From: Desulfatibacillum sp.
GTDB taxonomy: Bacteria; Desulfobacterota; Desulfobacteria; Desulfobacterales; Desulfatibacillaceae
Direction of reading: 5' to 3'
DNA: 64,000 nt
Assembly: GCA_016342355.1 (NCBI GenBank)
Contig: JAEINP010000017.1
Span: forward strand, 1-64,000
Under the pieces are notes generated by a model. It saw nothing but the letters and a program-made list of their open reading frames with translations, made no database searches and was not told where the DNA came from. Below are positions 16,427 to 32,598 of this stretch, piece after piece (position 1 is the stretch's first letter; each line of letters opens with the position of its first letter). The position numbers were made by a program, and so were the translations under genes.

Positions 16427-18469
16427 ATGGACCCCATTATACCCCAGCAACAAGCAGCCAAACCGCCCGTGGAAATCACCTGTTCCAGGGATTTTCTTCC
16501 CTGGCTGGAGAGGGAGGGTGTGAGCCTGGCTTTCACCACCTATCAGAGCAGCCGTTTGTTTTTTCTGGGACTCAAGGAAAACGGGGCGCTTTCCGCCTTT
16601 GAGCGGTTGTTTGACCATGCCATGGGGCTTTGGGCCACGCCCGATTCCCTGATAATGAGCAGCCGGTATCAGCTTTGGCGTTTTGAAAACGCCCTGGCGC
16701 CCGGAGAATTATACAATGACTATGACAGGCTGTATGTCCCCAGAACCGCCCACACCACCGGTGACCTGGATGTCCACGACGTGGTGGTGGACAAGCGCGG
16801 CGACATTATTTTTGTAAACACCCTTTACAGTTGCCTTGCCAAGGTAAGCGACCGTTATAGCTTCGTGCCTTTTTGGCAGCCGCCGTTCATATCCAAACTG
16901 GCCCACGAGGACCGGTGCCACCTGAACGGTCTGGCTTTGGTGAAGGGCGAACCCAAATATGTGACCGCCGTCAGCCGGTCGGACGTGGCTGCCGGATGGC
17001 GGGACCGCCGGAACGATGGCGGAATCGTGATGGATATCCAAACCAACGAGGTAATCGCCCAGGGCCTTTCCATGCCCCACTCCCCCCGGTATTACAGGGG
17101 CAGGCTGTGGATATGCAATTCAGGCAAGGGGTATTTCGGATATATCGACATGAAGTCCGGAGAATTCGTGCCCGTGACCTTTTGCCCCGGATACATGCGC
17201 GGTTTGGCTTTTTGGGGGGATTACGCCGTGGTGGGCCTGTCCAAACCCAGGAACAAGGCCTTCACCGGCCTGGACCTGGACAAGGAACTGGAAAAAAAGG
17301 ACGCGGAAGCCCGGTGCGGCTTCATGGTTATCAATATCAATACCGGAGACGTGGCCCACTGGGTTCAGATGGAAGGGGTGGTATCGGAACTGTATGACGT
17401 CCAGGTCCTTCCCGGAGTGCGCCGCCCCATGGCGCTTGGCCTCAAAAGCAAGGAGATCTGGCACATCATCACCGTGGAATCCGATAATGTTGCGGACGGG
17501 AAAAAGACTCCTCACACCTGGCAGGTGCCTGTGGAGGACAAAACCTCCAAATACCGTTTTGAGACACAAACCGAACTCAGCCCCTCCCAGGCCATGGCCC
17601 ATGATCCCTTTTCCTTTCCCAAATTGTCGGTAAGGTGGCGCAGCCGCCCCCCGGTGGGCAATGTGAATGTGGTGACCGCGTCCAACGCGGAGGGAATTGT
17701 GGGGTCCTGCCTGTCCGAAGTCCGGCCTGACAATGTGTCGGCTGAAATCATTTCCCTGCTTGTGGCGCCTGTATACCGAAATCAGGGGATCGCAAGGAAA
17801 CTGGTGGCCATGACAGAAGACCTGCTCAGGCAAAATGGAATTAAGGCCATGGACCTGACATACCGAACCAACTGGGATGGATGCGCCGCCGTGGAACAGA
17901 TCGCCCAAAAACAGGGATGGGCCGGGTCCATGCCGCTAAGGCTCTTGGCAAAAAGTTTAACCCGGACCATTTCCAGCGCCCCTTGGCTGAATACCCCGTT
18001 TCCACACCATCTTTGCGAGGTGTTTGACTGGTCTTTATTGACCAGTGGTGAAAGGAGTGCTATCGAGCAACGCATAGGTAATGAAAAAGGATTCCCCTTG
18101 GAATTATCCCCGTTTCAGGAAGAAAGCATGATTGAACCCCTGACCAGTTTGGGGATTCGTTACAAAGGAGAAGTAGCAGGTTGGAGCGTAACCCATCGGG
18201 TCGCCCCGGATACTATCCAATATACGGCGGCATATCTTCGCGAAGATCTGCGCGGCCTGGGTGTGTCGTTGCCCTTGGCCGCAGAGTCTGCCAGAAGAAG
18301 GATAGCCTCGGGGGTGCCCAAGGCCATATTTATGATAGACGCACGCAATCATGCCGCGCTCAAATTTTTTGACAAAAACTTAAGGCCTTACATGGAGTCC
18401 ATTGCGGAAGCCCGCATGGTCCATAAACTGCTGGAGCCAGTTCAGGAACAAAGTTCCGGCCTGAACTAA
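16427..18469 (+). CDS. TIGR03032-like domain fused to two GNAT acetyltransferase domains
   Basis: 680 aa. Residues 15 to about 385 resemble TIGR03032/DUF4915: FLPWLEREGVSLAFTTYQS, DLDVHDVVVDKRGDIIFVNT, HLNGLALVKGEPKYVTAV and the LWICNSGKGYFG segment, a likely six-bladed beta propeller of unknown role. Residues ~410-540 form a GNAT domain with the acetyl-CoA loop RNQGIARKL near 451, and residues ~558-664 a second, more divergent GNAT (DLRGLGVSLPLAAES). No signal peptide, so cytoplasmic. It lies 49 nt upstream of the first FG-GAP paralogue, and a decayed piece of a related GNAT end sits inside the array at 26735, which ties it to that family. Function is not known; protein or small-molecule acetylation is a guess. 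Confidence 0.8.
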   Translation: MDPIIPQQQAAKPPVEITCSRDFLPWLEREGVSLAFTTYQSSRLFFLGLKENGALSAFERLFDHAMGLWATPDSLIMSSRYQLWRFENALAPGELYNDYDRLYVPRTAHTTGDLDVHDVVVDKRGDIIFVNTLYSCLAKVSDRYSFVPFWQPPFISKLAHEDRCHLNGLALVKGEPKYVTAVSRSDVAAGWRDRRNDGGIVMDIQTNEVIAQGLSMPHSPRYYRGRLWICNSGKGYFGYIDMKSGEFVPVTFCPGYMRGLAFWGDYAVVGLSKPRNKAFTGLDLDKELEKKDAEARCGFMVININTGDVAHWVQMEGVVSELYDVQVLPGVRRPMALGLKSKEIWHIITVESDNVADGKKTPHTWQVPVEDKTSKYRFETQTELSPSQAMAHDPFSFPKLSVRWRSRPPVGNVNVVTASNAEGIVGSCLSEVRPDNVSAEIISLLVAPVYRNQGIARKLVAMTEDLLRQNGIKAMDLTYRTNWDGCAAVEQIAQKQGWAGSMPLRLLAKSLTRTISSAPWLNTPFPHHLCEVFDWSLLTSGERSAIEQRIGNEKGFPLELSPFQEESMIEPLTSLGIRYKGEVAGWSVTHRVAPDTIQYTAAYLREDLRGLGVSLPLAAESARRRIASGVPKAIFMIDARNHAALKFFDKNLRPYMESIAEARMVHKLLEPVQEQSSGLN

Positions 18470-18518
18470 AGTTTTGCCCATTCATGATTTCATGCTATTT
18501 CGAACAAGGAGGTTCCTC

Positions 18519-21044
18519 GTGAAGACAAATACCATTGAATCAAGACAACCCTCCCAAAAGGATTTGGGGATTCTTTTAGCCGAATTGGGCTCCACCATGG
18601 TTCTGAGCCGCCCTGATCTAAACTGCGCCATGGCTGTCAAGCCCGGTAAAAAGGGGCTGAAGCATAAAGTGCATCATTTTTCTTCCCCAAAGGCTTTCGA
18701 CTCCCAAGGCGCTCTAACCAGCCAGGGCTGGGATGAAATCCGGGCCTCGGGTTTGCTCCCGGGCGTGGGGCTGGGGGCAAAATCCTCCCAGGCCCGGCTG
18801 ATAGCCCGGGGTGCTGCCACCGCATTAATGGCGGGGGCCTTCACCCTTTTCCTGGGAACGGCAAATGTCCAGGCCCGGGATCAGATAGCCTATTTTGGAG
18901 GCGCCAACCCCTTTGAAGACATTGTCATCGGGAGCCCCAAACCCGCCTTTGTGGATATTGACGCCGACGGCGACATGGATCTTTTTGTGGGGGCGGAATG
19001 GGGCCAGGTGCGCTTTTTTGAAAACAAAGGCCAAGCTGGTTTTGCGGAGATCACCGACGGCAATCCCTTGTCCGGAACCTGGGTGGGCGATCTGGCCTCT
19101 CCTGCTTTTGTGGACATAGACGGCGACGGCGACATGGATTGCTTTGTGGGAACCGAGGAATCGTATAATTACAATTATTACTCTGCGGTTTCCTTTTTCG
19201 AAAATGTGGGCACTCCCACAGAGCCGGTTTTCGAGTGGCAGGTCGGGGACAGGAAGGACCCCATGTCCGGCATGGGTTACAACCCCCTTTGGAACGTGGA
19301 TTTGACCTACGCATCCCCAACCTTTGCGGACATAGATGGCGACGGCGACATGGACGCCTTTGTGGGCGGGGCGCCTGATTATGGAAACAGTGATGCCTCC
19401 TATGTCCTTTTCTATGAAAACGTCACGGGTGAGGAGTTACAAAAGAATGGCGAATCCATCCGATTCTCCTATGGCGGCGTGCTGACCCATACAGCCGGGT
19501 TCGTGGGGTTTGAAACCCCCGATTGCGCACCTGCATTTATGGACGCAGACGGCGACGGGGACCTGGACCTTTTTGTGGGCGGGACTCTTGGTAATGTTGG
19601 TTACTATAAAAACATCGGCGACAGGAATACCCCCTTGTTCCAGGAAGTGACAGACGGCGCCCATCCTCTGAACATTAACACCTGGTCTTTTGCGGCTCCG
19701 GCTTTCACGGACGTGGACGGCGACGGACGCCTGGATGCGGTGGTCGGCAGCGGTTTTTTTAACAGCTATGATATTTCCCGAAAAAAGGTCGATTTCAATA
19801 GCGAACTCTTAACCAACCAGTCGATCCGGTATTACAGGAACGTGGGCACATCCACCGCACCCAAATTCCGGTCCAGGGGCGACAATCCCTTTAACCTGGG
19901 GCCAGCCGGATTTGGTGCGTTCCCCACCTTCGGGGACATAGACGGAGACGGGGACCTGGACGCCATGGTGGGACACCTGAGCTATTTCGCCTTATATTTG
20001 ACGAGCTCTCCTTCCAAAACCGAGATCAATCCTTTCTTCAATAAGGGCATGTTCTACTACGAAAACACCGGCACAGCCGGAGACCCCGTGTTTGTTCGGC
20101 GGATCATGGGCGAAGACCCTTTCCGGGAATTTGGATATCCCTTTTTTGTGGCTCCGGCCACGGCGGACCTCAACGATGACGGAGTCCTGGAAACCTACTT
20201 TGGTATTAATGGGATCACCGCCGGAGGGGATAAATCCGGGCCTCCAGCCTATGTGGTGGCGGGACAATATGACTCTGAGGAAAACCTGATTGTGGAATCA
20301 CAATTCAATCCCATGGAAGAACTGGAGGTCCCCTTTTTCCCTGCCCCCGCCTTTGTGGACATAGACGGGGACGGCGACCTGGACGCCTTTGTAAGCGGCA
20401 TGAATTACAGCGGGGAATACGGAAACAGCTATCTGTCGCCCACGGTGTCTTTCTTCCTCAATGAGGGCACACCCATTACACCCGGCTTTGCACCCATTAC
20501 CGCCACCAACCCCCTGGCCGACATTTTTCCCATAAGCGACACCGTGCCCATTTCCCAGTCCGTTTTTCCGGACTTTCCAAGGGTGGTTTTTGGGGACATG
20601 GATGGGGACGGGGACAACGATGCCGTCCTGGGCGCTGTTTCATTGGATGCTCTTATGAGTCGGGACAGAAAAATAAGCCAGACTGAGACACTGGATTTTC
20701 CCACAGTACGTTATTTTGAAAACACCGGAGGCAGGGCGAACGCCGTGTTCACAGAACGCACGGGAAACGCCAATCCTTTTGCCGATGCGGGTGAAAGGTT
20801 CCATGGCGCCATGCCCACATTGGCGGACGTGGATAACGACGGCGACGTGGACGCATTTATCTCGGATTGGCAGGGTAGTTGGTACTATTACCGGCACCTC
20901 ACCACCGAGGAGGCCATCGCCGCGATCAAGGATAACGGTTGGGACTTGTGCTTTGTGGATAACGCCAAACAGGAGGAATCCCTGTGGCAAACCATTAAGA
21001 AAGGGATGGGGAAGCTCTTTGGCTTTTCCAATGATATTGAATAG
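18519..21044 (+). CDS. FG-GAP/VCBS repeat protein, array member 1 (most divergent)
   Basis: 841 aa. The GTG at 18519 is chosen because AAGGAGG lies six bases ahead; two upstream in-frame starts have no such site. Residues 1-90 are the family extension, including DLNCAMAV with Cys36. At 92-119 comes a basic-hydrophobic signal-like segment ending near NVQA. Then ten FG-GAP/VCBS-type repeats follow, with the DxDxDGDxD Ca-binding loops (FVDIDGDGDMDCFVG and variants). One repeat is degenerate (ADLNDDGVLETYFG). The end (TTEEAIAAIKDNGWDLCFVD...FGFSNDIE) is only distantly like the tails of members 2-5. It lacks the shared leader and terminator of the other members. Confidence 0.85.
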   Translation: MKTNTIESRQPSQKDLGILLAELGSTMVLSRPDLNCAMAVKPGKKGLKHKVHHFSSPKAFDSQGALTSQGWDEIRASGLLPGVGLGAKSSQARLIARGAATALMAGAFTLFLGTANVQARDQIAYFGGANPFEDIVIGSPKPAFVDIDADGDMDLFVGAEWGQVRFFENKGQAGFAEITDGNPLSGTWVGDLASPAFVDIDGDGDMDCFVGTEESYNYNYYSAVSFFENVGTPTEPVFEWQVGDRKDPMSGMGYNPLWNVDLTYASPTFADIDGDGDMDAFVGGAPDYGNSDASYVLFYENVTGEELQKNGESIRFSYGGVLTHTAGFVGFETPDCAPAFMDADGDGDLDLFVGGTLGNVGYYKNIGDRNTPLFQEVTDGAHPLNINTWSFAAPAFTDVDGDGRLDAVVGSGFFNSYDISRKKVDFNSELLTNQSIRYYRNVGTSTAPKFRSRGDNPFNLGPAGFGAFPTFGDIDGDGDLDAMVGHLSYFALYLTSSPSKTEINPFFNKGMFYYENTGTAGDPVFVRRIMGEDPFREFGYPFFVAPATADLNDDGVLETYFGINGITAGGDKSGPPAYVVAGQYDSEENLIVESQFNPMEELEVPFFPAPAFVDIDGDGDLDAFVSGMNYSGEYGNSYLSPTVSFFLNEGTPITPGFAPITATNPLADIFPISDTVPISQSVFPDFPRVVFGDMDGDGDNDAVLGAVSLDALMSRDRKISQTETLDFPTVRYFENTGGRANAVFTERTGNANPFADAGERFHGAMPTLADVDNDGDVDAFISDWQGSWYYYRHLTTEEAIAAIKDNGWDLCFVDNAKQEESLWQTIKKGMGKLFGFSNDIE

Positions 21045-21249
21045 GAAATGTTGTTGTTTTACTGGTGTGGCGCGGAAAGAGGGGAAATCCCTGCGCCTAC
21101 CCAACGCTGTTGGTAAAACATTATTAACAGGGATGGGGAACTTTTTTGGTTTTTCCAATAATTTTGGAAGCTATTTCTGTTTTTTTGGGGTGTGGCGTGA
21201 GAAGAGGGGGAATTCTCGCGTCTGACCCGGGTTTGCTAACCCTTTACGC
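21003..21249 (+). repeat. 127-nt tandem duplication covering the 3' end of paralogue 1 and leader
   Basis: The block beginning GGGATGGGGAAG at 21003 (last codons of paralogue 1) recurs, diverged, from 21130. Each copy continues through a CTTTTCCAATGA-like stretch and a GTGTGGCG...GAGGGG leader hairpin (21066-21100 and 21190-21220). The second copy carries the leader used by paralogue 2. The first leader copy has lost its base pairing. Confidence 0.7.
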
Positions 21250-21269
21250 GTATAGGAGTGGTAGTATTT
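21190..21269 (+). promoter_or_regulatory. Shared leader element L2 before paralogue 2
   Basis: Contains the arms CGTGAGAA and TTCTCGCG around a G-rich loop (AGAGGGGGA), then ACCCTTT and AGGAG about 11 nt before ATG 21270. The stem pairs fully with a G-T wobble. Compared with the other copies the stem has exchanged base pairs, as described in the findings. Confidence 0.6.
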
Positions 21270-23792
21270 ATGAACAGAGGGAAATTGGTTACTACAAACG
21301 ATCCACAAGAAGTTGAGAAGGCGCTGGCTCAGGTCGGCTCAACCGTGCTTTTGGCGAATTCCAAAATGGGATGCGCCATGGCGCTTACTAACACAGGCAA
21401 AGGCATTGAAACAAAGGCCCATTGCTTTTCAACCCCCCACCCCATCACCGCCAAGGGCGCACTCAGCCGTAGTGCCCATAAAGAGATTACTGCTTCCGGA
21501 ATCATGCCTTCCATGGCCTGTGGTTCCCATGCCTCCACGAAAAGGCTTGTGGCCCGCGGCGCCATGGCGGCCGCTTTCTCCGGCGCCCTGTTTCTGGGCA
21601 TGGGAGCGGACAATGCCATGGCCCAGAGTTTGGGGTACAATTATTTTGGCGGAACCAACCCCCTGGGAGAGGTGGTGGCCACCTTGTCCAAGCCAGCCTT
21701 TGTGGACATAGACCATGATGGCGACATGGATTGCTTCATCGGGGAAATGGAAGGATCCATTCAGTACTGGAAAAACAACGGTCAAGCAGGCTCACCGGAC
21801 TTTATGCAGTTGACCGGGGACGCAAACCCCCTCACCGGCACCCGAAGTTTCATGGACCGGCCGGCTCCCACCTTTGTGGATATTGATGGCGACGGCGACA
21901 TGGACTGCTTCATCGGCAGTGAGTACCCAGTGACCCAAAGATTGATGCTTGAAAAAGGCGACAGCGTTCAATCGGCGGTATCCTTTGTGGAAAACATAGG
22001 CACCCCCCAGGCTCCGGTGTTTGACTGGTCCGGAGTGATTACCGACACCCGTAAAACCATCACCCAAAATCCCCTTCTTGTACAAAGTGTCTATTGCGCC
22101 GTTCCCACCTTTGTGGATATCGATGGCGACGGCGACATGGACGCCTTTGTGGGGGATTACCGGGGCTATATCCATGGTTACGAAAACGTGACCGGCGAGC
22201 CAAACAAAAGCATAACGTCCACCATTGCCTTTTATGCCAAGGGCCTGCTCCAGGATTCCAATGGGGATAATATTCAGGCATACTACGGATATGCGGCGCC
22301 CGTTTTTATGGACGGGGACAACGACGGCGACATGGACCTGTTTGTGGGCAACCGGTTCGGCCTTATCCAGTATTACGAAAACACCGGAGATAATGAGAAT
22401 CCTGAGTTCAACGAACGGACCATGGACCAGAATCCCCTGCCGGTGAATCCCGGGCAGAATTCCGCCCCCGCTTTCGCCGATATCAACGGGGACGGCCGGA
22501 TGGATGCGTTCTTCGGCACATCATTGTCCATCTATGCCAGCAAAGCGGAGGATTTGCCCCATTCCTTGACCAGTATGAACATGCGGTATTACCAGAATGT
22601 GGGGACAGCCGCCAAGCCGGACTTCCGGTCCCGGGGAGATAACCCGTTTAATCTGGGTCCCAAGGCCTTTGCGCCTAACCCCGTCCTGGGAGACGTGGAC
22701 GGGGACGGCGATCTGGACGCCCTGGTTGGAAGCGACGACAATTTTTACTCGTTCATCTGGCTCATCCAGGGTTATGAGGGCAAGACGGACGACGCAAAAC
22801 TTATATCCAAACTTTATGGCCAGACCCTGGGATACTATGAGAACACAGGCACTGTAAGCGATCCGGTTTTCGCCGCCAAGCAGGGAGAGAACAATCCTTG
22901 GGGAGACCGGAACTGGTACCTTCCTTCCCCGGCCATCGCGGACCTGAACGGAGACGGCCTAAATGAAGTCTATGTGGGCCATACAGAAGAAAATGATTAC
23001 CTGGTGCTGTCACGAAAACAAAACAGTTTCGAGACCGGAGTCATTGACGCCTACGCCTATCGTAATATCTCGGATACCAGGTCTTTCGAATCCATGGACG
23101 TGAATCCTTTCCGAAACCTGGAATTGCCAATCTATCCCAGCCCTGCTTTCACGGATATTGACGGGGACGGCGATCTGGACGTTTTTGTTGCCGGAACTGT
23201 AGGCAACGGCTACAGCTATAATGCGCAAATCCAGTTCTTCCGCAACGTAGGATCGGCCATTTCTCCCACTTTCACGTTGGTGCAAGGGGATGCCAATCCT
23301 CTGACCGGCGTGGAGGGAATGATCTATCCCCGTTTGAGTTTTGCCGATGTGGACGGGGACGGCGATCTGGACGCGGTCTTGACCGATCTCCCCTTACAGG
23401 CCCCCAGGAAAGACGGGATGGAAGAACCGGTCTATCCCGGAGTCCGGTATTTTAAAAATACAGGGACCAAAACCGCCCCGGTATTCGTGGAGAAATTGGA
23501 AGGCGCCAATCCCTTTGACGTGGTGGTTGACAAAGCCATTCCCACGGGCGTGGCCCTGGCCGATATTGATAACGACAAGGATGTGGACGCCGTGGTCGGG
23601 GATGTTTTCGGCAAGGTGTATTACTTCCGTAACATCAAGACCGTAGAGGAAGCCAACGCCATCCTCAAGGATGATGATAACTGGCTGTGCTTTGTAAACA
23701 GCGCCCAGTCCGAGACCTCACTTTGGGACAGGCTGACCGATTCTTGCAAGCAGAGCGCCCAAAAAATTAAGGACTTTTTTTCTCCGTCCTGA
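21270..23792 (+). CDS. FG-GAP/VCBS repeat protein, array member 2
   Basis: 840 aa, ATG 21270 within the shared leader context. Residues 1-90 are the conserved extension (NDPQEVEKALA, MGCAMALTNTGKG with Cys35). KRLVARGAMAAAFSGALF at 91-108 leads to an AMAQ cleavage-like site near 118. Ten Ca-binding repeats follow (FVDIDGDGDMDCFIG type; DLNGDGLNEVYVG is the weaker seventh). The tail begins IKTVEEANAILKDDDNWLCF and ends DFFSPS. FG-GAP repeats of this kind form beta-propeller blades in integrin-like or secreted proteins, so export is inferred. A strong terminator follows. Confidence 0.87.
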   Translation: MNRGKLVTTNDPQEVEKALAQVGSTVLLANSKMGCAMALTNTGKGIETKAHCFSTPHPITAKGALSRSAHKEITASGIMPSMACGSHASTKRLVARGAMAAAFSGALFLGMGADNAMAQSLGYNYFGGTNPLGEVVATLSKPAFVDIDHDGDMDCFIGEMEGSIQYWKNNGQAGSPDFMQLTGDANPLTGTRSFMDRPAPTFVDIDGDGDMDCFIGSEYPVTQRLMLEKGDSVQSAVSFVENIGTPQAPVFDWSGVITDTRKTITQNPLLVQSVYCAVPTFVDIDGDGDMDAFVGDYRGYIHGYENVTGEPNKSITSTIAFYAKGLLQDSNGDNIQAYYGYAAPVFMDGDNDGDMDLFVGNRFGLIQYYENTGDNENPEFNERTMDQNPLPVNPGQNSAPAFADINGDGRMDAFFGTSLSIYASKAEDLPHSLTSMNMRYYQNVGTAAKPDFRSRGDNPFNLGPKAFAPNPVLGDVDGDGDLDALVGSDDNFYSFIWLIQGYEGKTDDAKLISKLYGQTLGYYENTGTVSDPVFAAKQGENNPWGDRNWYLPSPAIADLNGDGLNEVYVGHTEENDYLVLSRKQNSFETGVIDAYAYRNISDTRSFESMDVNPFRNLELPIYPSPAFTDIDGDGDLDVFVAGTVGNGYSYNAQIQFFRNVGSAISPTFTLVQGDANPLTGVEGMIYPRLSFADVDGDGDLDAVLTDLPLQAPRKDGMEEPVYPGVRYFKNTGTKTAPVFVEKLEGANPFDVVVDKAIPTGVALADIDNDKDVDAVVGDVFGKVYYFRNIKTVEEANAILKDDDNWLCFVNSAQSETSLWDRLTDSCKQSAQKIKDFFSPS

Positions 23793-23811
23793 TTTTTAAG
23801 TCCCAATAGCA

Positions 23812-23860
23812 AAACCTAAGAAGGGGGAGCCCTTAAAGGGGCTCCCCCTTCTTTAGGTTT
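23812..23860 (+). terminator. Terminator after paralogue 2
   Basis: Long, almost perfect stem (AAACCTAAGAAGGGGGAGCCC paired with GGGCTCCCCC...TTAGGTTT, one bulged base). The same hairpin follows paralogue 4 with AAACG/CGTTT in place of AAACC/GGTTT, a compensatory exchange that supports selection on the structure. Confidence 0.85.
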
Positions 23861-24043
23861 GCGGGGTTACGTTTTTCGCCTACGGGCAGTTTTTTTTTGC
23901 AAACTCAAATTCAGTCCAGCATTGCACCCGGTTTCCGGGAGACTCGGGCGCCAAAAAAAATGAAAAAATATAAATTCAGTTTGATTTATTGTGTTGGTAA
24001 TATACGCTTATTAAAATGATGATAATATCCAATTGGGGGATGG
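23812..24043 (+). repeat. Intergenic repeat copy A (paralogues 2-3)
   Basis: About 230 bases nearly identical to copy B (29619-29872) between paralogues 4 and 5. It contains the terminator, a GCATTGCACCCGGTTTCCGG stem region (arms GCACCCG / CGGGYGC) and an A/T-rich tract ending in ATACGCTTATTAAAATGATG. It shows that a gene-plus-spacer block was duplicated. Confidence 0.8.
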
Positions 24044-24045
24044 GG

Positions 24046-24122
24046 GAGCAGCGCGGGAAGAGGGGGAATTCTCGCGGCTACCTAACAACGCAGTAACCTT
24101 TAACGATTTAGGAGTAGAATTC
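24046..24122 (+). promoter_or_regulatory. Shared leader element L3 before paralogue 3
   Basis: CGCGGGAA and TTCTCGCG arms around the loop GAGGGGGA, then AACCTTT and TTAGGAG eight bases before ATG 24123. This copy has the most perfect 8-bp stem. Confidence 0.6.
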
Positions 24123-26609
24123 ATGGAAAGCGGGAAAATGTTGAACACGAACAACCCACAGGAAGTGGCGAAGGCATTGGCCGTCGTTGGTTCCAGCGTG
24201 CTTTTGGCAAACCCTAAAATGGGGTGCGCCATGGCTCTCACGAACACAGGCAAAGGCCTTGAAACAAAGGCCCATGTGTTTTCAACCCCCCACCCCATCA
24301 CGACCAAGGGCGCACTCAGCCTTGCGGCCTGCAACGAACTGGCTGCTTCAGGAATTATGCCTTCCATGGAATGCAGTTCCCATGCCTCCACGAAAAGGCT
24401 TGTGGCCCGCGGAGCCATGGCGGCCGCTTTCTCCGGCGCCCTGTTGTTTGGAATGGGAGCCTCCGACGCCATGGCCCAGGGTTTTGGTTACAATTATTAT
24501 GGAGGAACCAATCCTCTGGAAGATGTCTGGGCATACAACGCCAAACCAGCTTTCGTGGATATTGATAATGACGGTGATTTGGACTGCTTTGTCGGTGAAA
24601 ATGGCGGAACCGTGCAATTCTGGAAAAATTCCGGCACTCCGAGAGCGGCATCCTTCACCCGGATGATCGGGGCGGATAATCCCCTGAGCGATACCAATGT
24701 GTTGGACCTCGCCTCTCCTGCTTTTGTGGATATCGACGGCGACGGCGACATGGATGCCTTTATCGGCCATGCGAATGAAATGTATCAGACATGGGGCGAA
24801 TATTCAGGTGAGGAATCCCTTGTCACCTTCCTGGAAAACACTGGCACCCCCGAGGCTCCGGTATTCAATTTTAACGCTGTGGCGTCCGACACCCGCAAGA
24901 CCATCACCGAAAACCCGCTCATTGTGCAGGGCGGCTATTTCGCTGCCCCCACCTTTGCCGATATTGACGGCGATGGCGATATGGACGCCTTTGTGGGTGA
25001 CAGCTACGGGAATATCCGCCGCTATGAAAACGTGACCGGAGAGAACCCGAGCAAAGCCATCAGGTCTACCATTGTTTTTGTGTCCCGGGGGCCACTCCCG
25101 GGTAAAGACAGCTACCCAATTGACGCCGACAACGGAAATGCAGCGCCTTCCTTTGTGGACGTAGACGGCGACGGGGACCTGGACCTTTTTGTGGGCAACA
25201 AGTACGGCGCTATCCAGTATTTCGAAAACACAGGATCGGCCCAGGAATTTGAATTCACGGAACGGACCATGAGCCAGAATCCTTTGAGGGTAAACCCCGG
25301 AATCAATTCCGCCCCTGTCTTTGCCGATATTAACGGGGATGGATTGGCGGACTGTTTTATGGGTTCTTCCTGGACGAATACTAAAAGACGTATTCAAGAG
25401 CCAACAGAGTCTCCAACGGACTTCTACTCAAACCTTTTTGTGCGCTACTACCAGAACACCGGGACAGCCACAAAACCCGCTTTCCTGTCCCGGGGAGACA
25501 ATCCTTTCAATCTGGGCCCCAACGCTCTCATGGCCTCACCCGCCTTGGGAGATATTGACAACGACGGCGACTTGGATGCCCTGGTAGGCAGCATGTCCAT
25601 CGGTAAAAAAGCTCAGTCTAAAGACAACAAGGGCTCGTATTTTGGATCAAGGGCTTTGCGGTATTATGAAAATACAGGTGAAGCCAGCGCTCCGGTCTTT
25701 GCCCTATGGTCCGGGGAAGATGACCCGTGGTCTATCCCGTCGAATTGGCAACTGCCCACTCCCGCCATCGCCGACCTGAACGGAGACGGGTTTAACGAAG
25801 TCTACATGGGCTATACCAGCTATGCTGGAGGCAAGGAGTCATCTTCCTATACTAATCATATTGACGCCTATCAGTTCATTACCGACACAAAATCCTTTGT
25901 GGCCGCCAGCCAGAACCCCCTGAACGACCTTGTGGACCTGCCCGGGTATCCAGGCCCGGCCTTTGTGGACATAGACGGCGACGGCGACCTGGACCTTTTT
26001 GTCGCCGGTTCGGAATACATGGGTGAGTATATTAGGCCCAATGGCCAAATCCTGTTCTATCGCAACGAAGGCACGTCCATCAGTCCCACCTTTGCCTTGG
26101 TGACAGGGGATGCCAATCCTCTAACGGGTATTGAAGGAATGGTGATTTCCAGGCTGAGTTTCGCCGACGTGGACGGCGACGGCGACATGGACGCTGTCCT
26201 GAGCGAGATGTACCCAAATGACTCAGCCTTTAGAAAAAGCGCTGAACCAACCATGGGAACCCGGTATTTTAAAAATACGGGAACTAAAACCAGTCCCGTA
26301 TTTGAAGAAAAGGTTGACAACGCCAATCCCTTTGAGGTCACCAAGACAAAGACCATTCTCGGAGCCACGGCTTTGGCGGATCTGGACAATGACCATGATA
26401 TCGACGCTGTGATGGGCGACTACAATGGCAAGCTGTATTACTTCCGTAACATCAAGACTGTTGAGGAAGCCAACGCCATCCTGAAGGATGATGACGACTG
26501 GTTGTGCTTTGTGGACAGCGCCCAATCCGAAGTCTCTCTTTGGAACAGGCTGACCGATTCTTGCAAGCAGAGCGCCCAAAAAATTAAGAACTTTTTTTCT
26601 CCGTCCTGA
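24123..26609 (+). CDS. FG-GAP/VCBS repeat protein, array member 3
   Basis: 828 aa. The ATG at 24123 follows AGGAG at eight bases; an earlier in-frame start 30 codons up would read through the leader and is rejected. The extension (NNPQEVAKALA, MGCAMALTNTGKG, Cys35) and the KRLVARGAMAAAFSGALL segment are nearly identical to member 2, as is the tail (ending KNFFSPS). Ten repeats are present; the fifth (ADINGDGLADCFMG) and seventh are weaker. Closest in sequence and flanks to member 2. Confidence 0.87.
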   Translation: MESGKMLNTNNPQEVAKALAVVGSSVLLANPKMGCAMALTNTGKGLETKAHVFSTPHPITTKGALSLAACNELAASGIMPSMECSSHASTKRLVARGAMAAAFSGALLFGMGASDAMAQGFGYNYYGGTNPLEDVWAYNAKPAFVDIDNDGDLDCFVGENGGTVQFWKNSGTPRAASFTRMIGADNPLSDTNVLDLASPAFVDIDGDGDMDAFIGHANEMYQTWGEYSGEESLVTFLENTGTPEAPVFNFNAVASDTRKTITENPLIVQGGYFAAPTFADIDGDGDMDAFVGDSYGNIRRYENVTGENPSKAIRSTIVFVSRGPLPGKDSYPIDADNGNAAPSFVDVDGDGDLDLFVGNKYGAIQYFENTGSAQEFEFTERTMSQNPLRVNPGINSAPVFADINGDGLADCFMGSSWTNTKRRIQEPTESPTDFYSNLFVRYYQNTGTATKPAFLSRGDNPFNLGPNALMASPALGDIDNDGDLDALVGSMSIGKKAQSKDNKGSYFGSRALRYYENTGEASAPVFALWSGEDDPWSIPSNWQLPTPAIADLNGDGFNEVYMGYTSYAGGKESSSYTNHIDAYQFITDTKSFVAASQNPLNDLVDLPGYPGPAFVDIDGDGDLDLFVAGSEYMGEYIRPNGQILFYRNEGTSISPTFALVTGDANPLTGIEGMVISRLSFADVDGDGDMDAVLSEMYPNDSAFRKSAEPTMGTRYFKNTGTKTSPVFEEKVDNANPFEVTKTKTILGATALADLDNDHDIDAVMGDYNGKLYYFRNIKTVEEANAILKDDDDWLCFVDSAQSEVSLWNRLTDSCKQSAQKIKNFFSPS

Positions 26610-26635
26610 TTTTTAAAGTAAAATCGATGACATAG

Positions 26636-26668
26636 AAAGGGGGAACCTCATAACGGGGTTCCCCCTTT
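26636..26668 (+). terminator. Terminator after paralogue 3
   Basis: AAAGGGGGAACC arm, 8-nt loop, GGTTCCCCCTTT arm, followed by GCATTTTTT. Same position and length as the terminators after members 2, 4 and 5 but with AACC/GGTT in place of AGCC/GGCT, which keeps pairing. Confidence 0.8.
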
Positions 26669-26734
26669 GCATTTTTTGGATTGGACTCAGGGCGCAAAGG
26701 CCATTTTTTATGCTGGACGCGCAAACAAAAATGA

Positions 26735-26872
26735 GTTAAAATTCGCGTATACATATCTGTGTGTTACATGAAGCCTCTTGCAGAAGCCCGTATGATTCAT
26801 CATTTTTTTTTGAACCGGATGGGGCCTAATAATCGTAAATTGGATCTGATACTGCTTGAAACGGCGGTTTGA
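26735..26872 (+). pseudogene. Remnant of a GNAT acetyltransferase C-terminal end
   Basis: An open frame with no plausible own start contains YMKPLAEARMIHHFF. The end of the GNAT protein at 18391-18450 reads YMESIAEARMVHKLL: nine of thirteen residues agree over the core. It stops at 26870. Nothing of the upstream propeller or first GNAT is visible here, so this is a decayed duplicate fragment. Confidence 0.6.
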
Positions 26873-27002
26873 TACACAGGGACGCCAGACGAATGCAAGC
26901 CTATGCAGCCAATCAAACCCCATAGTATCAATTGCTTTTGAACACTGAGAAAACGGTCCTTGGCTGCAGGAATTCTTCAATTGATATAGCCCGTTTTGTT
27001 TT

Positions 27003-27078
27003 TGGCGCGGGAAGAGGGGGAATTCTCACGTCGATCTCATACTTGCGTTAACCTTTAAGAATTCGGGAGTGGATGACT
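27003..27078 (+). promoter_or_regulatory. Shared leader element L4 before paralogue 4
   Basis: CGCGGGAA and TTCTCACG arms (one mismatch) around GAGGGGGA, then AACCTTT and CGGGAG before ATG 27079. The spacer upstream of it (26873-27002) differs from copies A and B. Confidence 0.6.
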
Positions 27079-29601
27079 ATGGACAGAGGAAAAAAGGTGA
27101 ACACAAACGATCCGCAGGAAGTGGCGAAGGCGCTGGCCCAGGTCGGCTCCAGCGTGCTCCTGGCCAACCCTAAAATGGGGTGCGCCATGGCGCTTACCAA
27201 CACCGGCGATGGGCTGGAAAAAAAGGCCCATTGGTTTTCAACCTCCCACCCCATTACCGCCAAGGGAGCGCTTAGCCGTGCGGCCCGCAATGAACTGGCG
27301 GCCTCAGGGCTTGTGCCTTCCATCGCATGCGGGACAAGCGCTTCCACCAAAAGGCTTGTGGCGCGGGGCGCCATGGCGGCGGCCTTTTCCGGCGCTATGT
27401 TGTTTGGCATGGGAGCCACCGATGCCATGGCCCGGGATTTTGGTTTCACCTATTATGGAGGAACCAACCCCCTGGGAGAGGTTTTCGCATCCGGCGCCAA
27501 GCCCGCGTTTGTGGATATCGACAAAGACGGCGACATGGACTGCTTTATCGGTGAAAATGGTGGATCCGTTCAGTATTGGAAAAACAATTCCCAGGGTGGC
27601 GCCGCTTCCTTTACCAGGGTGACCGGCGAAGGCAACCCCTTTTCTGATACCGATGTCCTGTATTGGGCGGCCCCCACATTCGTGGATATTGACGGCGACG
27701 GCGACATGGACGCCTTTATCGGCCATGCCACAGAGCTGTATCAATACTGGCCCACAAAGAATGGCGGCAGCGACTCGCTTGTATCATTTATAGAAAATAC
27801 AGGCACTCCCCAGGTCCCCGTGTTTGACTCTGGAGTATTCACAGATACCATCCGCAAAACCATCCCCCAAAACCCCCTCATTGTGCAGGGCGACCATTGC
27901 GCGGTCCCCACCTTTGCCGATATTGACGGCGACGGCGACATGGACGCCTTTGTGGGTGATAGCGAAGGCTATATCCGCGTTTATGAAAATGTGACAGGGG
28001 AAGACCCGAGAAAAGTCATCACCGCTACCATTGACTTTATGAGCCAGGGGCTACTCCCGGGCAACGATGGCTACCCCATTTATGCCTACAACGGATATGC
28101 GGCGCCTTCCTTTGTGGACGTGGACGGCGACGGGGACCTGGACCTTTTTGTGGGCAACAAGTACGGCGCTATCCAGTATTTTCAAAACACGGGGACAGCC
28201 CAGAGTTTTCAATTCACGGAAATGACCCTGTGCCAGAATCCCATCAAGGTGAATCCCGGGGCTTATTCCGCCCCTGCGTTTACCGATATAAATGGGGACG
28301 GACGCATGGATGCTTTTTTGGGCGCCTCCTGGTTCTATGGGTTTGGCCGAAAACAAGAACAAGAGATAGGTACGAGCTTCTATTCAAGCCTTTTTGTGCG
28401 CTATTACCAGAACACCGGGACAGCCACGGAACCCGCCTTCCGGTCCCGTGGGGACAATCCCTTCAACCTGGGACCCGACGCCATGATGCCCTCGCCCGCC
28501 TTGGGAGACATTGACAACGACGGCGACCTGGACGCCATTGTAGGCTGTTTTTCCCCGATTTGGTATAACTACGCCGCCAAGGAAGAGGCCGGAAAGGGCA
28601 AACCAGTTTACCTCAAACAGAGTTTGCGGTACTATGAAAATACAGGCACAGTAGGAGATCCTGTCTTTGCCTTGTGGTCCGCCGCGGCTGATCCGTGGGA
28701 AAACCGCATGGATTGGTATCTGCCCTCCCCCGCCATCGCCGATCTGGACGGGGACGGCTCAAATGAAGTCTATGTGGGCTATTCGGTGGACGAGGAAATT
28801 CTTAGGAGTTCAAAGGATCCCATAACCTATACCAGCTATATTGAAGCCTATCAGTACATCACCAACACAAGATCCTTTGTGACTGCCTGCCAGAATCCCT
28901 TGGGCGATTTTGCCGACCTGCCCATGTACCCGTCCCCTGCCTTTGTGGACGTGGATGGCGACGGCGACCTGGACGTCTTTATTTCGGGTCGTTTTGAGGA
29001 AGTGGAATATGCCCCGCTCCTGCGAAAGGGGGATGTTGTCACATACACTTACGAGGCGGACATCGCGTTCTACCGCAATGAAGGGACGGCCATCACTCCC
29101 ACCTTCACTCTGGTGGAAGGAGAGGGCAATCCCCTCACCGGTGTTGAGGGAATGATGATGCCCAGGCTGAGTTTCGCCGACGTGGACGGCGACGGCGACA
29201 TGGATGCTGTCCTGAGCGAATTGTTCCCCTATGGCGGATTGACCTTGGGAAACCGATACTTTCAAAACACCGGCACAAAGACAGAGCCGGTTTTCGAGGA
29301 ACGGGAAGGCAACGCCAATCCCTTGGAGGTCATGACCAAAATAACCATCCCCGGGGCGACTGCCTTGGCGGACCTTGATAATGACAAGGACGTGGACGCT
29401 ATCGTCGGAGACTATTTTGGCAAACTGTATTACTTCCGGAACATTAAAACCGTCGAGGAAGCCAACGCCATCCTCAAGGATAACGACGACTGGCTGTGTT
29501 TTGTGGACAGCGCCCAATCCGAGGTTTCACTGTGGAACAGGCTGACCGAGTCCTGCAAGCAGGGTGCCCAGAAAATCAGGATGCTCTTTTCACCTTCCTG
29601 A
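27079..29601 (+). CDS. FG-GAP/VCBS repeat protein, array member 4
   Basis: 840 aa. The ATG at 27079 is preferred over the ATG two codons earlier because it gives a nine-base spacing from GGGAG. Same architecture: extension with MGCAMALTNTGDG (Cys35), KRLVARGAMAAAFSGAML segment, an AMAR cleavage-like site, ten Ca-binding repeats and a VEEANAILKDNDDWLCF tail ending MLFSPS. It differs from member 5 mainly in loops between repeats. Confidence 0.87.
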   Translation: MDRGKKVNTNDPQEVAKALAQVGSSVLLANPKMGCAMALTNTGDGLEKKAHWFSTSHPITAKGALSRAARNELAASGLVPSIACGTSASTKRLVARGAMAAAFSGAMLFGMGATDAMARDFGFTYYGGTNPLGEVFASGAKPAFVDIDKDGDMDCFIGENGGSVQYWKNNSQGGAASFTRVTGEGNPFSDTDVLYWAAPTFVDIDGDGDMDAFIGHATELYQYWPTKNGGSDSLVSFIENTGTPQVPVFDSGVFTDTIRKTIPQNPLIVQGDHCAVPTFADIDGDGDMDAFVGDSEGYIRVYENVTGEDPRKVITATIDFMSQGLLPGNDGYPIYAYNGYAAPSFVDVDGDGDLDLFVGNKYGAIQYFQNTGTAQSFQFTEMTLCQNPIKVNPGAYSAPAFTDINGDGRMDAFLGASWFYGFGRKQEQEIGTSFYSSLFVRYYQNTGTATEPAFRSRGDNPFNLGPDAMMPSPALGDIDNDGDLDAIVGCFSPIWYNYAAKEEAGKGKPVYLKQSLRYYENTGTVGDPVFALWSAAADPWENRMDWYLPSPAIADLDGDGSNEVYVGYSVDEEILRSSKDPITYTSYIEAYQYITNTRSFVTACQNPLGDFADLPMYPSPAFVDVDGDGDLDVFISGRFEEVEYAPLLRKGDVVTYTYEADIAFYRNEGTAITPTFTLVEGEGNPLTGVEGMMMPRLSFADVDGDGDMDAVLSELFPYGGLTLGNRYFQNTGTKTEPVFEEREGNANPLEVMTKITIPGATALADLDNDKDVDAIVGDYFGKLYYFRNIKTVEEANAILKDNDDWLCFVDSAQSEVSLWNRLTESCKQGAQKIRMLFSPS

Positions 29602-29618
29602 TTTTAAGTTCCCATACC

Positions 29619-29669
29619 AAACGCTAAAAAAGGGGGAGCCTCTAAAAGGGCTCCCCCTTCTTTACGTTT
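29619..29669 (+). terminator. Terminator after paralogue 4
   Basis: AAACGCTAAAAAAGGGGGAGCC arm pairs with GGCTCCCCCTTCTTTACGTTT, with a 7-nt loop. Compensatory partner of the terminator after paralogue 2. Confidence 0.85.
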
Positions 29670-29872
29670 GTGGGGTTATATTTTTCGCCTATGGACAATT
29701 TTTTGCAACCTCAAATTCAGTCCCAGCATTGCACCCGGTTTCCGGGAGACTCGGGTGCCTAAAAAAAATGAAAATATAAAATTCAGTTTGATTTATTATG
29801 TGTTGGTAATGTAAGTTCAAGAATTAGTAACATACGCTTATTAAAATGATGATAAAAATTTCCAATTGGGGG
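29619..29872 (+). repeat. Intergenic repeat copy B (paralogues 4-5)
   Basis: Second copy of the ~230-bp spacer found at 23812-24043. It keeps the GCACCCGGTTTCCGGGAGAC block exactly but has an extra ~25-nt insertion (GTTCAAGAATTAGTAACA-like) in the A/T-rich part. Confidence 0.8.
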
Positions 29873-29874
29873 AG

Positions 29875-29951
29875 TAGCGCGGGAAGAGGGGGGGAATTCT
29901 CACCTCTATCCAATACTATCGGTAACCTTTCAGGATTCAGGAGTGGAACTT
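29875..29951 (+). promoter_or_regulatory. Shared leader element L5 before paralogue 5
   Basis: CGCGGGAA and TTCTCACC arms around an expanded loop GAGGGGGGGA, then GGTAACCTTT and GGAG eight bases before ATG 29952. The lower stem is weakened to a few pairs in this copy. Confidence 0.55.
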
Positions 29952-32516
29952 ATGGACAGAGAAAAAATGGTGAACACAAACGATCCGCAGGAAGTTGCAA
30001 AGGCGTTGGCCCGGGTTGGCTCCACAGTGCTCCTGGCCAATCCCAAAATGGGATGCGCCATGGCCCTTACCAACACCGGCAACGGCCTGGAAAAAAGGGC
30101 CCATTGGTTTTCAACCTCCCACCCCATCACGACCAAGGGCGCCCTTAGCGGCCCAGCCTGCAAGGAACTGACGGCTTCAGGAATCCTGCCTTCCATGGCG
30201 AATGGATCGGGCTCTCCCACCAAAAGGCTTGTGGCCCGAGGCGCCATGGCGGCTGCCTTTTCCGGCGCCATGTTGCTTGGCATGGGAACCACCGATGCCA
30301 TGGCCCGGGATTTTGGTTTTACCTACTATGGAGGAACCAACCCTCTGGCGGATGTTTTGGCGCCAGGCGCCAAGCCAGCCTTTGTGGATATAGACAATGA
30401 CGGCGACCTGGACTGCTTTGTCGGAAGCGAGAACGGAGACATTGTCTATTTGAAAAACGGCGGAAACTCTTCCAGCCCCAGTTTTTCTGTGGTCGCAGGG
30501 GACGCCAACCCCTTGAGCGGTACAGATTATTTCAGACACACCTCTCCCGCTTTTGTGGACATCGACGGCGACGGCGATATGGATTGCTTTGTGGGAACCT
30601 TTGAGGGGGACTATTATCAGACCTGGGAAGCCAAAGGTTCAAGTGATTATTCTTCCATCAGTTTTTTTGAAAACACCGGAACGCCCCAGGTCCCTGTTTT
30701 CAACGTGAACAATGTCGTTTTGTCAGACACCCGAAAGACCATGGTTTATAATCCTCTTGTTGTGGGAGACATCTGGAATGCCTCCCCCGTCTTTGTGGAC
30801 ATCGACGGCGACGGCGATATGGATGCCTTTGTGGGCGACTTCTACGGAGTCATTCATAGTTTTGAAAACATGACAATTAATCCCGATTCCACAAAAGGCG
30901 CCATAACCGGTACAGTCGCTTTTGAGGACCGGGGAGTGTTGCAAGACTACGACGGCAATTACATATGGGCTTATAACGGATATGCCTCCCCCGCCTTCTC
31001 GGACGTGGATGGCGACGGCGACATGGACCTTTTTGTGGGAAACAAGTACGGGGCGGTCCAGTATTTCGAGAACACGGGAACGAGCACGGATTTCAAGTTC
31101 ACGGAACGCACCATGTGTCAGAATCCTGCAAGATTGAATCCCGGCATGTACTCCGCCCCCGCATTTGCGGACATCAACGGAGACGGTCTGGCGGACCTGT
31201 TCTTTGGCGCGTCCCCGTTTGAATGGTCTGACAAAAAGGGCGAGGAACCAACATTCCTTACCGATTTCAATTCCAACCTGTCTATTCGCTACTACCAGAA
31301 CACGGGGACAGCCACAGAACCCGCCTTCCGGTCACGCGGGGACAACCCCTTTAACCTGGGGCCCGCATTCATGATGCCGTCTCCTGCTTTGGGCGACATT
31401 GACGGCGACGGAGATCTGGACGCAATTGTTGGCGCTTTTGTCTACATTGATCGAGATAAGGCGAAAACAAAAGATAAACAGGAAAGCCAGGAAAGCCAGG
31501 AAAGCCTAAAGTATTACGAGAATATCGGCTCGGAGTCCAATCCGAATTTCGCCTTGTGGAGTATGGAATCCAATCCGTGGAACGTGCCTCGTAAGAATCT
31601 AAGCAACGGATGGTATATGCCTTCCCCGGCCATCGCCGATCTGGACGGAGACGGCTCAAATGAAGTCTATGTGGGCTATTCCGTGGACCAGGAGGTCCTT
31701 AATAGTTCAAAGGGTCCCCTAACCTATACCAGATATATTGAAGCCTACAATTACATTACCAACACAAGATCCTTTGAGGCTGCCGACCAGAACCCCCTGG
31801 GAGACCTTGATGACCTACCCTTGTTTCCCGGCCCGGCTTTTGTGGACATTGACGGGGACGGGGACCTGGACGTTTTTATTTCGGGTCTTTTTGAGGAAGT
31901 GGAATATGCCACGCTCCTGCGAAGGGGGGGCGTTGTCACAATCACTAACGAGGCGGACATCGCGTTCTACCGTAATGAAGGGACGCCCATCACGCCCACA
32001 TTCACCTTGGTGACCGGGGAAGACAATCCTCTCACCGGCGTTGTGGGAGTGATGCTGCCCAGGCTGAATTTTGCCGATGTGGATGGCGATGGCGACCAAG
32101 ACGCTGTCCTGGGAGACCTGTACCCTTTGGGCTATTTTTTCGGGGGAGAAGACTCAACCGGGAGAGCCCGGTACTTTGAAAACACCGGCACAAAGGCAGA
32201 ACCGGTCTTTGTGGAGCGGGAAGGCAACGCCAATCCCTTTGAAGTCATGACTAAAAAGACCATCCCCGGTGCGACTGTCCTGGCGGACCTGGATAACGAC
32301 AAGGACGTGGACGCTATCACCGGAGATTATTTTGGTAAGCTGACATATTTCCGCAACATCAAAACCGTGGAGGAAGCCAACGCCATCCTCAAGGATGACG
32401 ACGACTGGTTGTGCTTTGTGGACAGCGCGGAATCCCAAGCCTCCTTGTGGGACAAGTTGACCGAGTCCTGCAAGCAGGGCGCCCAAAAAATCAGGGAGTT
32501 CTTTTCACCTTCCTGA
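29952..32516 (+). CDS. FG-GAP/VCBS repeat protein, array member 5
   Basis: 854 aa; ATG 29952 follows GGAG at eight bases. Conserved extension (NDPQEVAKALARVGS, Cys35 in MGCAMALTNTGNG), KRLVARGAMAAAFSGAML segment with AMAR site, ten repeats, and the VEEANAILKDDDDWLCF tail ending FFSPS. The loop near residue 503 carries an ESQESQES-like microrepeat (from three AGGAAAGCC copies, about 31480-31505), a sign of recent slippage. Last member of the array. Confidence 0.87.
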   Translation: MDREKMVNTNDPQEVAKALARVGSTVLLANPKMGCAMALTNTGNGLEKRAHWFSTSHPITTKGALSGPACKELTASGILPSMANGSGSPTKRLVARGAMAAAFSGAMLLGMGTTDAMARDFGFTYYGGTNPLADVLAPGAKPAFVDIDNDGDLDCFVGSENGDIVYLKNGGNSSSPSFSVVAGDANPLSGTDYFRHTSPAFVDIDGDGDMDCFVGTFEGDYYQTWEAKGSSDYSSISFFENTGTPQVPVFNVNNVVLSDTRKTMVYNPLVVGDIWNASPVFVDIDGDGDMDAFVGDFYGVIHSFENMTINPDSTKGAITGTVAFEDRGVLQDYDGNYIWAYNGYASPAFSDVDGDGDMDLFVGNKYGAVQYFENTGTSTDFKFTERTMCQNPARLNPGMYSAPAFADINGDGLADLFFGASPFEWSDKKGEEPTFLTDFNSNLSIRYYQNTGTATEPAFRSRGDNPFNLGPAFMMPSPALGDIDGDGDLDAIVGAFVYIDRDKAKTKDKQESQESQESLKYYENIGSESNPNFALWSMESNPWNVPRKNLSNGWYMPSPAIADLDGDGSNEVYVGYSVDQEVLNSSKGPLTYTRYIEAYNYITNTRSFEAADQNPLGDLDDLPLFPGPAFVDIDGDGDLDVFISGLFEEVEYATLLRRGGVVTITNEADIAFYRNEGTPITPTFTLVTGEDNPLTGVVGVMLPRLNFADVDGDGDQDAVLGDLYPLGYFFGGEDSTGRARYFENTGTKAEPVFVEREGNANPFEVMTKKTIPGATVLADLDNDKDVDAITGDYFGKLTYFRNIKTVEEANAILKDDDDWLCFVDSAESQASLWDKLTESCKQGAQKIREFFSPS

Positions 32517-32533: not shown

Positions 32534-32565
32534 AAACACTAAAAAAGGGGGAGCCTTAAAAAAGG
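32534..32565. terminator. Terminator after paralogue 5
   Basis: AAAGGGGGAGCC arm, A-rich loop, GGTTCCCCCTTT arm with one wobble pair. It lies between the array and the convergent TIGR03084-like gene and may serve both. Confidence 0.75.
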
Positions 32566-32598
32566 TTCCCCCTTTGAATTGATGTCTGCTTGTTGGGA

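Follow-up and report, generated by a model that had tools for sequence, protein, structure and literature searches.

TIGR03032/DUF4915 genes beside FG-GAP arrays and other exoprotein genes: a possible system for cytosolic tailoring of exported proteins

The window analyzed here comprises 64,000 nucleotides of Desulfatibacillum sp. (contig JAEINP010000017.1, positions 1 to 64,000) and contains six consecutive genes on the + strand (16427-32516), namely one coding for a TIGR03032/DUF4915 domain fused to GNAT acetyltransferase domains, and five coding for FG-GAP repeat proteins arranged head to tail (18519-32516; Table 1). We describe this locus, the recurrence of TIGR03032 genes beside genes for FG-GAP and other exported repeat proteins, and a cytosolic protein-modification system that this linkage may betray.

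The locus and its proteins

A preliminary description of this stretch had claimed five paralogues with ten repeats each, a conserved pre-signal extension, a conserved tail and terminators in members 2-5, and a TIGR03032-like gene with two acetyltransferase domains directly upstream; these claims stand, with the refinements given below. All five paralogues are intact open reading frames (ORFs), match PF13517 (FG-GAP_3) with 120-153 bits against a cut-off of 26.9, and show ten repeats with a hidden Markov model (HMM) built from the window itself. Their starts were placed by eye via Shine-Dalgarno-like sites; that of paralogue 1 has its own such site and lies 49 nucleotides past the stop of the TIGR03032-GNAT gene.

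The product of the upstream gene matches TIGR03032 (483.2 bits against a curated cut-off of 251.5, E 3.6e-145) and DUF4915 (PF16261; 481.2 bits against 35, E 1.9e-144) over the full length of both profiles. Its GNAT region is recovered by Acetyltransf_1 (48 bits against 20.7) and carries RNQGIA at residue 451, which we take to be the coenzyme A (CoA)-type motif. The structural model shows two GNAT folds, and tandem-GNAT structures top the Foldseek results for the C-terminal half (5kgh, E 2e-11). The model is confident across most of the propeller, which matches six-bladed folds of the YWTD/NHL type, such as Nidogen (1npe; Z 23.6, root-mean-square deviation (rmsd) 3.0, 237 aligned residues); an arylsulfate sulfotransferase (3ett, Z 19.6) appears among many six-bladed propellers in what is a comparison of folds alone. 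The absence of a family from these fold lists was not taken as exclusion, and sequence searches of the PDB gave no match for either TIGR03032 or the FG-GAP part. Residues invariant in 37 TIGR03032 sequences include H117, D118, R163, H165, N167, H218, R221, R258, R275, E321 and D324, and, judging from residue spacing, would line a central funnel.

GH43 propellers are five-bladed and integrin FG-GAP propellers seven-bladed. Exactly five or ten repeats are present in 22 of the 24 FG-GAP proteins scoring at least 140 bits, the exceptions being G081 (11 by profile, 10 by motif) and L067 (sevens), and in L057 the sole large insertion falls between repeats 5 and 6. These counts were made before the model comparison, in which residues 128-458 of the model of paralogue 4 align with the GH43 propeller 3qed (Z 17.6, rmsd 3.6, 253 aligned) and residues 457-789 with 5zqx (Z 16.2, rmsd 3.9, 257 aligned). 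The model is compatible with two tandem five-bladed propellers, at residues ~127-458 and ~457-789. Lower-scoring FG-GAP neighbors of TIGR03032 mostly have ~7 repeats with a spacing of ~72 residues, and two giant FG-GAP proteins show a break after every seven repeats in most blocks; since both types are found among the neighbors, TIGR03032 accompanies five- and seven-repeat proteins alike. Where TIGR03032 is fused to GNAT, the neighbor is of the five-repeat type. Separately, a gene on plasmid p3 of Azospirillum brasilense (L040, 3086-14896) codes for a giant SwmB-domain protein with FG-GAP repeat blocks ~254 residues apart, whose repeats, counted later than the 24, read 5-5-5; no annotated TIGR03032 gene lies within 10 kb of this match.

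Old tandem duplications gave rise to the array, and every copy in it is intact: between the mature parts of members 2-5 the proportion of synonymous differences (pS) is 0.51-0.66, and no two members share an exact run longer than 59 nucleotides. Member 1 is the most diverged (42-43% identity to the others; 35% to member 4 across extension and signal). In paralogue 4 the signal-peptide-like segment ends by eye near AMA, at residue ~118, and is preceded by an extension of ~88 residues that is conserved in the array with member 1 as the outlier. Among members 2-5 the extension has a ratio of nonsynonymous to synonymous differences (pN/pS) of 0.25-0.30 (0.14-0.22 after Jukes-Cantor correction), and based on this purifying selection and the placed start codons we take it to be translated. 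An extension profile finds matches only in the own genome (five) and a congener (two) among 116 relatives; a single further match among 297 phylum genomes (E 7.8e-4) is taken as chance because of the stop codons inside it, and a profile search of plasmids gave none. Thus, wide occurrence with unrelated proteins, which the preliminary description had named as a point that would count against it, was not seen in the genomes searched. The extension is a local embellishment, whereas the TIGR03032-exoprotein linkage is far broader. The tail, kept in members 2-5 and recognizable in member 1 too, consists of an acidic stretch, then CFVxxA, then a short helix.

A leader, a Shine-Dalgarno-like site and a terminator-like hairpin accompany each of the genes for members 2-5, the long hairpins 3' of members 2-4 being computed and that of member 5 seen by eye. 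Computed counts of promoters (13 against 11.7 in shuffles) and terminators (24 against 23.0) do not exceed shuffles, and we consequently relied on the long stems alone. Rfam reported no match at gathering cut-offs anywhere in the window; in 20900-30100 it gave only sub-threshold, mostly microRNA-like matches on the terminator hairpins. The leader core pattern, with up to two mismatches allowed, has three genome matches, all mismatch-free, and none in the congener, and no pair of its hairpin has both sides changed in six sequences; for these reasons we treat the leader as part of the duplicated unit. As for the GNAT fragment reported inside the array, what persists is a weak candidate: 37 nucleotides matching the 3' end of the TIGR03032-GNAT gene (78%). 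Its score of 34 is reached by 0 of 1000 block shuffles, narrowly (best shuffle 32), another intergenic stretch scores 29, and the protein-level score is attained in 2 of 200 shuffles. In a different locus (L061, 10001-21053), a TIGR03032-GNAT-GT41 gene, a ten-repeat FG-GAP gene and a second TIGR03032-GNAT-GT2 gene stand in tandem as a repeated unit, as the possible remnant in the window may also be.

Table 1. Coordinates of the genes and sequence elements of the FG-GAP array and its upstream gene
Feature	Coordinates	Strand	Basis or remark
TIGR03032/DUF4915 six-bladed propeller (residues 16-349) fused to tandem GNAT (residues ~377-660)	16427..18469	+	family profiles, model
FG-GAP paralogue 1, 841 residues, GTG start	18519..21044	+	PF13517, repeat HMM, Shine-Dalgarno-like site
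Leader element matching GRGAAGAGGGGGAATTCTC	21199..21217	+	further matches 24055-24073, 27009-27027; variant 5' of paralogue 5
FG-GAP paralogue 2, 840 residues	21270..23792	+	PF13517, repeat HMM
Terminator-like hairpin 3' of paralogue 2	23818..23853	+	full stem listed on - strand
FG-GAP paralogue 3, 828 residues	24123..26609	+	PF13517, repeat HMM
Counterpart terminator-like hairpins	26636-26668, 29630-29659, ~32544-32575		last one by eye
Possible remnant, 3' end of a second TIGR03032-GNAT gene	26764..26800	+	weak
FG-GAP paralogue 4, 840 residues	27079..29601	+	PF13517, repeat HMM, model
Pre-signal extension of paralogue 4, residues 1-89	27079..27345	+	counterparts in other members
C-tail of paralogue 4, acidic, Cys-containing (DDWLCFVDSAQSE...)	29452..29598	+	
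FG-GAP paralogue 5, 854 residues	29952..32516	+	PF13517, repeat HMM

Elsewhere in the window, positions 13722-15728 form a single 668-residue ORF that reads by eye as a PurD-PurE fusion.

Linkage of TIGR03032 to exoprotein genes

We then examined gene neighborhoods in other genomes. A scan with a TIGR03032 profile built from six FG-GAP-linked members gave at least 567 confirmed matches, of which the best 80 were kept; L096, where no single ORF spans the match, was left out to give 79 usable loci (a first pass had left out 9 of the 80). The gene caller is crude and misplaced some ORFs, the protein alignment scan left out 3 of 125 listed proteins, and the p-values ignore phylogeny. Up to three genes away from TIGR03032, 29 of 394 gene positions are taken by FG-GAP genes, as against 0 of 448 farther out (p 1.5e-10), and 27 of the 29 lie on the strand of the TIGR03032 gene. 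Counted by locus, an FG-GAP gene is near TIGR03032 in 28 of 79 and an FG-GAP or RTX gene in 39; by class, the FG-GAP neighbor is present in all six GNAT fusions, in 6 of 18 loci of the GT41 class and in 16 of the remaining 55. In Pfam counts restricted to same-strand neighbors of at least 150 residues, FG-GAP (21) and HemolysinCabind (16) stand out downstream (n=45), and FG-GAP (10) and GT41 (9) upstream (n=47). The linkage is also found in Cyanobacteria, in Betaproteobacteria and in the phylum to which the window belongs, and in Planctomycetes TIGR03032 is linked to weaker, seven-repeat FG-GAP genes. The preliminary description had staked its case on such recurrence in other genomes; the linkage is indeed found there and extends to other exported repeat proteins. 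Its suggestion that the upstream gene is a dedicated partner is likewise supported by this spread, and the recurring companions are enzymes (GNAT, GT41).

Approached from the FG-GAP side, an array profile (E <= 1e-15) matches 4 of the 116 relatives, and all four have TIGR03032 over cut-off (Fisher 7e-7), out of five relatives that do. The congener has a TIGR03032-GNAT gene with two FG-GAP genes, G077 two FG-GAP genes on each side of TIGR03032, and G081 one FG-GAP gene; in the fifth relative (G017) TIGR03032 lies beside a DUF4347/cadherin exoprotein. Two further phylum genomes have TIGR03032 over cut-off, G123 and G170, and in the former it adjoins an autotransporter, such that exoprotein linkage is present in six of the seven genomes of the own phylum with TIGR03032 over cut-off. 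The best plasmid matches of paralogue 4 are Nostoc genes adjoining TIGR03032 genes.

A second, annotated set comprised 15 plasmid records matched by the window's TIGR03032 domain, of which 14 were viewed (H22 was left out). An exoprotein gene is adjacent to or one gene from TIGR03032 in 12 of these: FG-GAP, cadherin-like, VCBS or Ig-like proteins in five, autotransporters in four and choice-of-anchor Q proteins in two, and in one record a sulfotransferase gene separates TIGR03032 from the gene for an IPTL-CTERM protein. Given this variety, FG-GAP proteins are one of several client types, and the linkage extends to exoproteins of the RTX, cadherin-like, autotransporter and choice-of-anchor kinds. 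On four alphaproteobacterial plasmids and in G123 (L171, L172, L173, L175, L166) TIGR03032 is beside autotransporter genes, directly adjacent in four of the five. Five phmmer queries (E <= 1e-6) found no relatives of the sulfotransferase, autotransporter and choice-of-anchor proteins among the genes of the 80 loci, and the sulfotransferase and autotransporter links therefore come from the plasmid records and G123.

Partner enzymes and a possible modification system

GT41 is a family of protein glycosyltransferases. Among the TIGR03032 proteins longer than 420 residues, 7 of 19 are fused to GT41 and 5 of 19 to GNAT, and GT41 is found at 13 of the 280 positions lying no more than two genes from TIGR03032, against 1 of 562 beyond. 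Of 13 GNAT-fused proteins, 12 have the CoA-type motif; the one that does not (L111) is a 493-residue ORF. Genes for adenosine 5'-phosphosulfate (APS) kinase-like proteins, three of them CysN-sized, show a comparable pattern (7 of 280 within two genes, 0 of 562 beyond; p 4e-4), and annotated cysC genes adjoin two Nostoc TIGR03032 loci, hinting at sulfation. At L054, L064, L075, L094, L099, L102 and L115, at L010 and at L169, genes for APS kinase or for CysN- or CysD-like proteins adjoin TIGR03032 or the exoprotein.

In light of the observed adjacency, fusions, repeat architecture and motifs, we propose as the most economical reading a cytosolic system built around TIGR03032/DUF4915, by which large exoproteins would be modified prior to their export, with exchangeable chemistry and with partner and client encoded nearby, a proposal that we hold with belief and doubt in equal measure. 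The exchangeable group-transfer partners would be GNAT, GT41/TPR glycosyltransferases and sometimes sulfate-activation enzymes; in the window genome the partner would be the fused tandem GNAT and the clients the five calcium-binding FG-GAP proteins. Here, the neighboring gene product would be the substrate, the transferred group an acyl group, and the extension a device that delays export. The FG-GAP precursor would be kept export-competent in the cytosol, probably via the pre-signal extension; the six-bladed TIGR03032 propeller would bind it, and the CoA-type GNAT would acylate either the protein itself or a sugar attached to it. Signal peptide cleavage would then remove the extension. Outside the cell, Ca2+ would fold two five-bladed propellers, a blade number suggested by repeat counts and model, which might act in adhesion or glycan binding, and the acidic, Cys-containing, CFI-box-like tail may perhaps sort or anchor the protein.

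Several observations weigh against this proposal. The modification itself is something we infer from gene linkage, and Sec-exported clients are an awkward fit for a cytosolic enzyme. The 79 loci are a non-random sample, drawn with an FG-GAP-linked query profile from the best 80 of 567 matches; within three genes, 51 of them have no FG-GAP gene and 40 neither FG-GAP nor RTX, some of these loci being cut short by contig ends. Many of the FG-GAP matches are weak (15-45 bits) and belong to seven-repeat or RTX-bearing proteins, and the six GNAT-fusion loci comprise five from cyanobacteria and one from Nitrosomonas. No exoprotein was recognized beside TIGR03032 in G170 or in two of the 14 viewed plasmid records, one of these near the end of the record. 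From the FG-GAP side, two further array-profile matches in G077 (C1:1457k and C1:2346k) lie far from its TIGR03032 locus, the Azospirillum plasmid matches of paralogue 4 are not beside TIGR03032 genes, and five-repeat FG-GAP proteins of Azospirillum lack TIGR03032 within 10 kb. The FG-GAP model is modest (predicted local distance difference test 68.8, 12 sequences); of the 50 fold rows, the majority cover the first half, two are confined to the second and some extend across both, and in Foldseek alone the top ranks went to CRTAC1, UmbA4 and DDB1, with integrins listed too. Finally, the closest likeness of the tandem GNAT is to a glucosamine acetyltransferase, so that the target may be a sugar.

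A bolder version, which we entertain tentatively, holds that TIGR03032/DUF4915 is itself a new group-transfer enzyme, with the invariant His, Arg and Asp residues in its six-bladed propeller, acting whatever the export route (type I, type V or Sec). The interchangeable GNAT, GT41 and 3'-phosphoadenosine 5'-phosphosulfate (PAPS)-supply partners would then lead to exoproteins acylated, glycosylated or sulfated in the cytosol; sulfation is left open because APS-kinase-like genes adjoin TIGR03032 in 7 of 79 loci and one sulfotransferase is annotated.

The resemblance of the closest solved GNAT fold to glucosamine N-acetyltransferase could also be read to mean that TIGR03032 and its fused GNAT or glycosyltransferase make or modify a surface glycan or small molecule that works with the exoprotein, leaving the latter untouched. 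One plasmid record has glycosyltransferase, epimerase, LicD and sulfotransferase-family genes near TIGR03032, and another has glycosyltransferase, acyltransferase and acyl carrier protein genes; however, such companions vary where the exoprotein neighbor recurs, and GT41 acts on proteins, leaving this explanation doubtful. That TIGR03032 is instead a dedicated chaperone or export escort of large repeat proteins, with GNAT and GT41 as accessories, would accommodate the 60 of 79 sampled TIGR03032 proteins that have only 340-400 residues, too short for a fused enzyme, and clients of differing export routes (RTX, autotransporter and signal-peptide types). Yet a single chaperone for unrelated export routes is unexpected and the many charged residues invariant in the 37 sequences look like a catalytic or ligand site; we consider it unlikely. 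Mere sharing of surface-gene islands, with no functional meaning to the linkage, is improbable: several TIGR03032 copies are on plasmids and some lack exoprotein neighbors, but the confinement of FG-GAP genes to within three genes, their shared strand and their presence at every GNAT fusion speak against it. Least probable is the variable-protein system of recombination cassettes suggested in the preliminary description, for despite five tandem paralogues with a common tail and leader, and tails of members 2 and 3 that have diverged less (pS 0.27) than the mature parts of the two (0.65), the copies are intact, have their own ribosome-binding sites and are too diverged, with too short a shared run, for recent homogenization or recombination, and this reading is not supported.

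The TIGR03032/DUF4915 family, to which no function is assigned, is widespread, with at least 567 candidates confirmed by tblastn in the genome scan. Its exoprotein neighbors and fused transferases turn an orphan family into a hypothesis of cytosolic tailoring of exported proteins, and the linkage suggests an undescribed chemical tailoring of secreted proteins. If true, this would offer a handle on the control of surface adhesion in cyanobacteria and other bacteria.

Comparison with known systems

The upstream gene product is a full-length member of both TIGR03032 (an NCBIfam hypothetical equivalog) and DUF4915 (Pfam PF16261), for which both libraries give no function, and no mention of TIGR03032, DUF4915 or the CFI-box was found in the open-licence PubMed Central (PMC) papers searched. 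The consulted portions of the literature on five-bladed FG-GAP proteins likewise yielded nothing on the present system. Arylsulfate sulfotransferase is a six-bladed propeller with a sulfated His (PMC13426309), and the likeness of the TIGR03032 propeller to it is one of fold alone. The CFI-box (NF041763), a putative sorting motif, is matched by one G077 tail (L032; 17.5 bits against a cut-off of 15.9) and approached by another G077 tail (14.6) and a G001 tail (13.4); it has no match in the three of five window tails scanned (paralogues 2, 3 and 5), and these read CFV rather than CFI.

The FG-GAP proteins share the repeat families PF13517 and PF01839 with integrins, but have five or ten repeats, not seven, and their model matches GH43-type propellers. 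An integrin-alpha-type seven-bladed propeller was rejected on account of ten repeats in all five paralogues, the five-repeat spacing in relatives and the model alignment; the five-repeat unit would widen the FG-GAP fold beyond the seven-bladed integrin propellers. Cyanobacterial FG-GAP-like propeller motifs have been described, with function not known (PMC4735018); in the portion of that account consulted neither TIGR03032 nor a five-repeat FG-GAP unit appears, and its five-bladed lectins are another family.

Bacterial OGT-like GT41 proteins provide a further likeness, as many relatives carry a TPR-containing GT41 either in fusion with TIGR03032 or next to it. A bacterial OGT has been described (PMC4683255), and that account, as far as consulted, does not tie bacterial OGTs to exoproteins; moreover, the window's own genome has no GT41 match.

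A functional parallel is HlyC/RtxC with RTX toxins, in which a GNAT-fold enzyme is likewise encoded beside a Ca-binding repeat exoprotein. RtxC, in the part of its description consulted, uses an acyl-ACP donor and is without CoA-interacting elements (PMC8339906), whereas the present GNAT fusions keep the CoA-type motif in all but one case and are fused to a propeller. The RtxC family gives no match to the window protein at E <= 0.01, Acetyltransf_1 being found instead, and the absent match together with RNQGIA excludes membership in HlyC/RtxC. By analogy, the TIGR03032 system might work on its clients as HlyC does on RTX toxins, differing in donor motif, architecture and client.

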